From Candidatus Gastranaerophilales bacterium (GTDB taxonomy: Bacteria; Cyanobacteriota; Vampirovibrionia; Gastranaerophilales; Gastranaerophilaceae): a DNA stretch of 37,491 bases. Made by a program: the position numbers and the translations under genes. This document shows positions 1 through 22,599 of the stretch, one piece after another (position 1 is the first letter of the stretch; each line of letters opens with the position of its first letter). Below the pieces are notes generated by a model, which saw only the letters and a program-made list of their open reading frames with translations, was not told the DNA's origin and made no database searches. The stretch is from the NCBI GenBank assembly GCA_944322875.1, contig CALUQI010000008.1, positions 1-37,491 on the forward strand, given 5' to 3'.

Positions 1-30
1 ACCTCCAAACCTATAAATCAACCCAATTAA

Positions 31-59
31 ATTATAGTAACAAAACCTTGCAAAGTCAA
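31..59 (-). promoter_or_regulatory. Consensus sigma70 promoter firing out of the left edge
   Basis: On the minus strand a -35 box TTGACT (59..54) and a -10 box TATAAT (36..31) are separated by exactly 17 nt. Transcription would start near position 24, and the window ends in GGAGGT (6..1), a strong Shine-Dalgarno sequence. This implies a gene whose start codon lies just beyond the left edge. The gene itself cannot be seen. Confidence 0.65.
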
Positions 60-77
60 GCATGGAGCGGGTCTTGC

Positions 78-131
78 CTACAGCCCCCCCCCCCATTTAA
101 GAAAGTAGACACAGTGCGTATTTTGACCCAT
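78..131 (-). CDS. Short 17-codon ORF broken at a poly-G run (leader peptide or frameshifted gene start)
   Basis: The ATG at 131 is preceded by GGAGG (144..140) at 8 nt spacing and by a consensus promoter (192..164), so translation here is plausible. As written it encodes MGQNTHCVYFLKWGGGL and stops at TAG (80..78), directly after 11 consecutive G residues. If the run were 9 or 12 G, the frame would instead stay open through the remaining bases to the left edge. With 10 G it stops after 25 codons. It may be a leader peptide, a phase-variable gene start, or a gene broken by a homopolymer sequencing or assembly error. No homology is recognised in the peptide. Confidence 0.4.
   Translation of the reverse strand: MGQNTHCVYFLKWGGGL
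84..94. repeat. Homopolymer of 11 C (11 G on the minus strand)
   Basis: Eleven uninterrupted C residues in an otherwise strongly AT-rich region. The run lies inside the short ORF at 131..78 and about 25 nt upstream of the -35 box of the edge promoter. Such tracts are prone to slipped-strand mispairing and also to sequencing error. Confidence 0.95.
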
Positions 132-163
132 TTTAAAATCCTCCATAAATTCTTTACGCAAAG

Positions 164-192
164 ATTATACCATTCTATAATACTTTTTGCAA
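164..192 (-). promoter_or_regulatory. Consensus sigma70 promoter upstream of the poly-G ORF
   Basis: The -35 box TTGCAA (192..187) and -10 box TATAAT (169..164) are separated by 17 nt on the minus strand. The predicted start near 157 gives a leader of about 26 nt containing GGAGG before the ATG at 131. Promoter, ribosome site and start codon are all correctly spaced. Confidence 0.65.
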
Positions 193-252
193 TCTTAAAA
201 AATATTAATCCATGGTAAATGAGTCAGGTGAATTATACAAGCAGATTTTGTT

Positions 253-540
253 TTAGAAATGCATATCAAAAGATGGCGGCATTCCGTTCATCTTTTCATC
301 TTCCATTCTCATTGCCGAGCCTATTGTGAAACTTTGTGCACATATCCTATTTATTTGAAAATTTAAATCTCCGTTGAATACTTCTTCGTTTTCTTCTAAA
401 AATTTGAAAAGTGGATCTGCAGGTGATTTTGCTAAATTACCAAGTGTTTCACCAGCTTGTTTCAGAGTTCTTTCCGGTACTTTTACATTCAATCCGAATG
501 GTTTATAGGGTCTGTTAAATGAAAATCCTGCTTCTGTCAT
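253..540 (-). CDS. Hypothetical protein, 95 aa
   Basis: A small, mostly soluble protein with no signal peptide or membrane segment. The start at 540 is preceded by AAAGGAAAC at a suitable distance, which supports the start. Nothing in the sequence matches a family I recognise. It has one cysteine (in NRICAQ), a central acidic stretch (FLEENEEVF) and a Met-rich C-terminus. It lies downstream of the 458-codon unknown gene on the same strand after a gap of about 120 nt, so it could be transcribed separately or by read-through. The coding call rests on the ribosome site, the size and non-random composition. Function unknown. Confidence 0.65.
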   Translation of the reverse strand: MTEAGFSFNRPYKPFGLNVKVPERTLKQAGETLGNLAKSPADPLFKFLEENEEVFNGDLNFQINRICAQSFTIGSAMRMEDEKMNGMPPSFDMHF

Positions 541-22510: not shown

Positions 22511-22599
22511 GGAGTAATGGCCGAGTGGCTGAAGGCGGCACCCTGCTAAGGTGTTATGTGGGTTATCCTGCATCGAGGGTTCAAATCCCTCTTGCTCCG
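22511..22599 (+). tRNA. tRNA-Ser(GCU)
   Basis: Class II tRNA of 89 nt. The acceptor stem GGAGTAA pairs with TTGCTCC (one G-T pair), discriminator G; the D arm has TGGCCGAGTGGCTGAAGGC; the anticodon loop CTGCTAA holds GCT at 22545-22547 (reads AGY serine codons); a long variable arm and the T arm GAGGGTTCAAATCCCTC follow. No CCA is encoded. Confidence 0.97.

Follow-up and report, generated by a model that had tools for sequence, protein, structure and literature searches.

The left edge of the window (the whole 37,491-nt stretch that was analyzed, contig C8 of Candidatus Gastranaerophilales genome G000, 1.49 Mb in 98 contigs) very probably carries the 5′ portion of a gene from a large phase-variable type IV prepilin family, a role read from homologous copies, as the pilin of the window copy lies past the contig break. 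Judged from sequence, we have high confidence that the layout represents slipped-strand translational phase variation in the prepilin signal peptide, combined with the swapping of pilin cassettes behind it. With anything from one to nearly ninety pilus genes in a genome preceded by it, the layout looks like an on/off dial for many surface fibres.

Results

Layout at the left edge of the window

The promoter, GGAGG, ATG, and 17-codon ORF ending directly after 11 G that the first-pass annotation had described were confirmed on the minus strand (Table 1), as was its alternative frame, which was open from G11 to the window edge and passed through GKTRSMLDFAR. The internal promoter sits inside this alternative frame and is stronger than the outer promoter (11/12 vs. 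10/12 matches). The first-pass annotation had mentioned neither this promoter nor the second GGAGG, nor that the contig breaks within a repeat.

Table 1. Coordinates of the features at the left edge of the window.
Feature	Position	Strand	Remarks
Dispersed repeat	1..205	.	12 matches in the genome, mostly at or near contig ends
Outer promoter of the leader ORF	164..192	-	TTGCAA 192-187, 17-nt spacer, TG-extended TATAAT 169-164; 10/12 matches; -10 region conserved across copies
Putative ribosome-binding site (RBS) of the leader ORF (GGAGG)	140..144	-	8-nt spacer to ATG
ATG of the leader ORF	131-129	-
Leader ORF, MGQNTHCVYFLKWGGGL	78..131	-	17 codons; as assembled, OFF frame; would start a prepilin fusion if the tract were in register; codon-level conservation
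G11 homopolymer	84..94	-	Proposed slipped-strand switch
TAG stop of the leader ORF	80-78	-	Directly 3′ of G11
Prepilin leader continued in the alternative frame (AVGKTRSMLDFARFCYYNLIGLIYRFGG...)	1..83	-	In longer copies, in frame with the prepilin
Internal promoter	31..59	-	TTGACT 59-54, 17 nt, TATAAT 36-31; 11/12 matches; kept in copies with a second start
Second GGAGG	2..6	-	In sister copies, followed directly by the prepilin's own ATG, here past the contig edge

A contig break within the dispersed repeat forms the start of the window. Repeat copies that extend further form the 5′ end (promoter and leader) of type IV prepilin-like genes (MKSFGKVKYRRYAFTLAEVLITITVIGVV...), and in copies with enough sequence the leader ORF continued into an FTLAEV type IV prepilin without a stop in exactly one tract-length class. 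The fused leader-prepilin ORFs reached 423 aa, some being cut short where the contig or the stretch read ended. The conserved protein that the first-pass annotation had proposed to look for beyond the edge in the alternative frame was thus found in the longer copies. A reading of the 200-bp dispersed repeat as a mobile element was dropped, the downstream sequence being prepilin genes in frame.

An Rfam scan of the window gave nothing at the left edge, the sole match being a tRNA (22511-22599). Upstream of the leader region and adjoining TsaD/TsaE-like genes, a 458-aa protein with an HNH endonuclease domain (PF13395) is encoded at 662-2038 on the minus strand; between this gene and the prepilin promoter lies a 95-aa ORF without a Pfam match (253-540, minus strand).

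Frame relation between poly-G tracts and prepilins

Whole-genome counts in G000 were obtained by pattern searches. Only 11 runs of at least nine G were found in its 1.49 Mb, all in prepilin leaders, a placement beyond chance; three of them (the window copy, C96, and C97) were assigned by leader homology alone because their contigs end. Among 79 distinct poly-G/prepilin loci, a number that includes paralogues and therefore overstates independence, the prepilin frame was open from the tract to the FTLAE motif in all 79, against 28.2 expected from shuffling; the other two frames were open in 6 and 7 loci. A leader with a Shine-Dalgarno sequence (SD) and ATG was present at 76 of the 79 loci. Leaders were diverse (61 different first six residues among 76 loci) and were unrelated in sequence in other genera, yet the order SD-ATG-polyG-prepilin was kept.

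The state could be scored at 76 loci, with 12 ON and 64 OFF, so that the OFF share exceeded the random two-thirds (P = 0.0009). OFF frames stopped no more than 12 codons from the tract in 62 of 64 cases. As in contingency loci, a long homopolymer lay in a reading frame (G11 in the window, G8 to G13 over the 79 loci), one register opened a conserved gene and the others truncated it (79/79; 62/64), and tract length differed at the same locus between close relatives, in this case between species.

Two layouts were observed. One, to which the window belongs, gives the prepilin an additional promoter, RBS, and ATG of its own; in the other (e.g., L105, L108, L109, L114, L006-L008), these inner elements are absent or decayed, and the start of the leader is the only one preceded by an RBS. 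Overall, at 64 of the 76 loci with an SD+ATG leader, the stretch from tract to prepilin contained no separate start preceded by an SD. Internal SD-preceded starts, often with a promoter, occurred in 12 of the 79 loci, including the window's class, and could bypass the switch.

Same-locus comparison

Tract lengths at the same locus were compared between species, with one assembly per species and with the error that G-run lengths from short-read assemblies carry. The tract was G12 and ON in G002:C3 but G11 and OFF in G009:C107, two contigs with 92% identity over 3.7 kb around the leader. At a second orthologous locus (G002:C1, G008:C5, and G009:C61), three species had tracts of 11, 10, and 9 G, respectively.

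The pilin itself also differed at one locus. Between G010:C1 (L106) and G012:C1 (L107) the flanks were 98.6% and 99.1% identical and the leader was nearly the same, whereas the pilins were different, with 48% identity over 71 residues only; a third pilin was present at this locus in G008:C29. The body was replaced completely, with one breakpoint just after the poly-G leader and the other downstream of the pilin stop; pilin bodies are thus exchanged behind a shared leader.

Distribution in Gastranaerophilales

The family was searched for G8, 20-80 bases, and FTLAE[V/I]. Matches were found in 82 of 288 genomes and 16 of 41 genera, whereas the reversed pattern, used as a control, gave no match over the same family. 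Beyond the family, 2 of 22 genomes of the same order and none of 84 genomes in the phylum sample had the pattern. Counting each tract once, genomes had from one to 89 poly-G/prepilin loci, with the highest numbers in G235 (89), G256 (50), G153 (40), G060 (38), and G157 (32). With a stricter motif, prepilins numbered 79 in G235, 75 in G005, and 74 in G002, whereas a genus without poly-G had one to two in each of two genomes. Named matches to the leader pattern in the species collection were Candidatus Gastranaerophilales MAGs plus one record labeled "uncultured bacterium"; viral contigs gave no match to this pattern.

Leader peptide and cleavage site

Across 29 distinct leaders of the NTHY type, the residues N, T, H, and Y encoded by codons 4-6 and 9 were invariant, with synonymous changes in three of the four, an invariance that is partly imposed because the search pattern required these residues while leaving codon choice free. 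Mean dN was 0.30 and mean dS was 0.52. These values give modest support to translation of the leader, modest because the stretch is short.

The residue before F1 was Gly in 38, Ala in 36, and Ser in 5 of the 79 loci. Ala (nearly half of the loci) and Ser (a few) at this position are unusual for bacterial prepilins. ON-form leaders had 18-150 residues (median 30), 26 of 76 being 26 aa or shorter. In bacteria, the class III signal peptides of type IV prepilins are 6-26 residues long, with Gly as the final residue (PMC4471445). Given the lengths and end residues of the ON-form leaders, their removal by prepilin peptidase is no more than likely. A prepilin peptidase gene is present in G000 (PF01478, C13:7207-7596, 41.1 bits, over the cut-off).

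Properties of the prepilin

The prepilin N-terminus, FTLAEVLIT, scored above the cut-offs of PF07963 (24.3 vs. 21.2) and TIGR02532 (21 vs. 16.3) and combined the N-terminal motif, including Glu5, with a hydrophobic helix, as in type IV prepilins. The structure model (pLDDT 80.5, pTM 0.54) had a long N-terminal helix, with low confidence in that part. The variable C-terminal half weakly resembled Legionella Lcl-C and C-type-lectin folds: the best Foldseek matches were the Legionella Lcl C-terminal domain (E = 2.9e-3) and Bdellovibrio Bd2740 (E = 6.5e-3), with C-type-lectin-like folds lower, and Pfam Lcl_C reached 20.2 bits, under its cut-off of 34.9. These resemblances would fit an adhesive head, but only as a suggestion, no Foldseek match having E < 0.001.

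Discussion

The proposed sequence of events would begin at the outer promoter, with an mRNA whose first ORF crosses the poly-G tract into the prepilin. With the tract in one of three registers, the ribosome would make leader plus prepilin; otherwise it would meet a stop within a few codons. Slippage of the tract at replication would change the register, so that each pilin in a population would be switched independently. Prepilin peptidase would then remove the leader upstream of F(T)LAEV, and because the leader lies upstream of this cleavage motif, the hypermutable low-complexity peptide should stay out of the mature pilin. Together, switching and cassette exchange would diversify the surface fibres. 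We infer switching from comparisons of assemblies, since these were the only data, with one assembly per species and error-prone G-run lengths.

The slipped-strand switch that the first-pass annotation had put forward gained strong support: the layout stands before all 79 prepilins examined, a conserved protein follows it, and both tract length and frame vary between orthologues. Absence of the run from relatives, which the annotation had named as refuting the idea, did not hold: they carry it, with 8 to 13 G. Its two other suggestions fared less well. The OFF frame does give a 17-aa peptide, so a leader peptide exists in a trivial sense; as a regulatory (attenuating) leader, a conserved short ORF ending at the run, it is very improbable. 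The NTHY peptide and the stop after the run are conserved within the genus, but leaders are unrelated in other genera, the frame is open to the prepilin, and no terminator was found on the minus strand between the leader and the window edge, so that the attenuator arrangement of a conserved short ORF and a terminator before the gene was not seen. Assembly error does not explain the layout, although the precise number of G in this single contig may conceivably be miscounted. The contigs are short and broken in the repeat, and the assemblies are single consensus sequences; however, the runs recur in 79 loci and 16 genera, including well-assembled genomes (G012, and G002 with 20 contigs), and a frame relation is not something that miscounting can create. 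We consider the chance that the feature is a homopolymer miscount or assembly artefact close to negligible.

Other readings accept the tract and assign it a different role. For the window's class, one such reading takes the outer leader with its G run as only a modulator or relic and has the pilin made constitutively from the inner promoter. TTGACT-17-TATAAT and the SD-ATG are indeed kept in copies from G000, G002, G005, G008, and G009, but none of those copies has a prepilin-frame stop in the 30-40 codons across that promoter, and L109 and L006-L008 lost the inner start and kept the frame; we regard this reading as rather doubtful. Transcriptional slippage or ribosomal frameshifting on the run could, at any DNA length, yield full-length prepilin at a low and constant level. 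Long runs of G are prone to slippage and the prepilin frame is kept open in every locus, and because of the excess of OFF assemblies (64/76) another route, either this one or silent donor cassettes, may matter. Nevertheless, the tract varies from 8 to 13 G and its register is not conserved, unlike programmed sites, and runs are shortened or interrupted at L004, L005, and L028, so slippage or frameshifting is unlikely. Even less likely is a silent-cassette system, in which leader-tagged copies would be mainly donors or recombination platforms and the G run a marker or recombination aid, comparable to the G-rich element upstream of gonococcal pilE. The different pilins in near-identical flanks of G010:C1 and G012:C1, with the third in G008:C29, would fit such a system, but each copy comes complete with promoter, RBS, and full-length gene, and a recombination role would not need the open frame seen in 79 of 79 loci.

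In the window copy, slipped-strand switching may tune the amount of pilin or its leader instead of being all-or-none. With an RBS and a promoter inside the leader frame, and presumably also an ATG beyond the contig edge, control of this copy may be graded, with expression possible at any tract length.

Several known systems share parts of this layout. Neisseria pilC is phase variable through a poly-G tract of 9-20 G within the reading frame (PMC5953494). As in pilC, a G homopolymer of nine and more lies inside the frame of a type IV pilus protein and would turn it on or off by frame; unlike pilC, which comprises one or two genes for pilus-associated proteins, the Gastranaerophilales system places the run in the class III signal peptide of tens of prepilins in an uncultured lineage. 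The pilC run lies in the signal-peptide region and is also removed. Neisseria opa genes carry CTTCT repeats at about 4 or 11-12 loci per genome (PMC5953494). Like opa, the prepilins are a multigene surface family with an independent repeat switch for each member, but opa uses pentamer repeats in outer-membrane proteins at about a dozen loci at most, compared with poly-G in pilins at up to 89 loci. Replacement of the pilin body behind a constant 5′ region recalls Neisseria pilE/pilS. The pilS copies are silent donors without promoter and start, whereas Gastranaerophilales copies carry promoter, RBS, ATG, and switch; promoterless donors with a single expression site were not found among them, and the exchange seen here is a difference between species. 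Compared with the class III signal peptide (PMC4471445), the leader likewise precedes an F1/E5 hydrophobic helix in a genome with a peptidase gene, but it contains a hypermutable run, is often more than 26 residues long, and at half of the loci has Ala or Ser as its last residue.

Relative to pilC and opa, the new aspects are the scale, the position in the pilins' own class III signal peptide, the lineage, and the combination with cassette exchange. A search of open-licence papers found no description of this system in this lineage. It is reasonably likely that these dozens of prepilin genes, each with a poly-G switch confined to a cleaved signal peptide and with bodies shuffled among leaders, form a family-wide combinatorial system that ranks among the largest known repertoires of phase-variable pilins. 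The most familiar poly-G contingency genes are those of host-adapted pathogens such as Neisseria, Helicobacter, and Campylobacter. On average, 15-19 poly-G tracts occur in a genome of the main pathogenic Neisseria or of N. lactamica, spread over many gene types (PMC5953494), against up to 89 in one genome for a single protein type in this uncultured gut lineage of non-photosynthetic cyanobacterial relatives, and here the tract lies in a segment whose processing should leave no trace of it in the mature protein. The layout offers a testable account of surface-fibre variation in the gut, under attachment, phage, or immune pressure. Automated gene calling would record many such pilins as missing, truncated, or wrongly started.

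Some leaders had further peculiarities. At L104, L106, L107, L114, L115, and L116, dispersed intergenic repeats (...HPEVPEAQQHIRAFWNFTGHPKALAEGSQKVNEMLKQVQHD..., ...CHCEGAKRLSQSHYRYVKKAA...) were inserted between the tract and FTLAEV and read through in frame, which is why leaders reach 150 residues. An inverted repeat, absent from the window copy and from the other genera looked at, was present in some leaders of genus g1 (e.g., L104 and L107), in which GGAGGTTAA, at the leader RBS, has its complement, TTAACCTCC, just 3′ of the poly-G; a hairpin masking the RBS is possible. Two FTLAE motifs occurred in tandem in one leader at L113 (G005:C18; GFTLAEMAEPRQHIRHSYKGFTLAEVLITL) and at L019 (VAFTLAEGATQRICT...), as if a repeat had been inserted just after the first prepilin motif.
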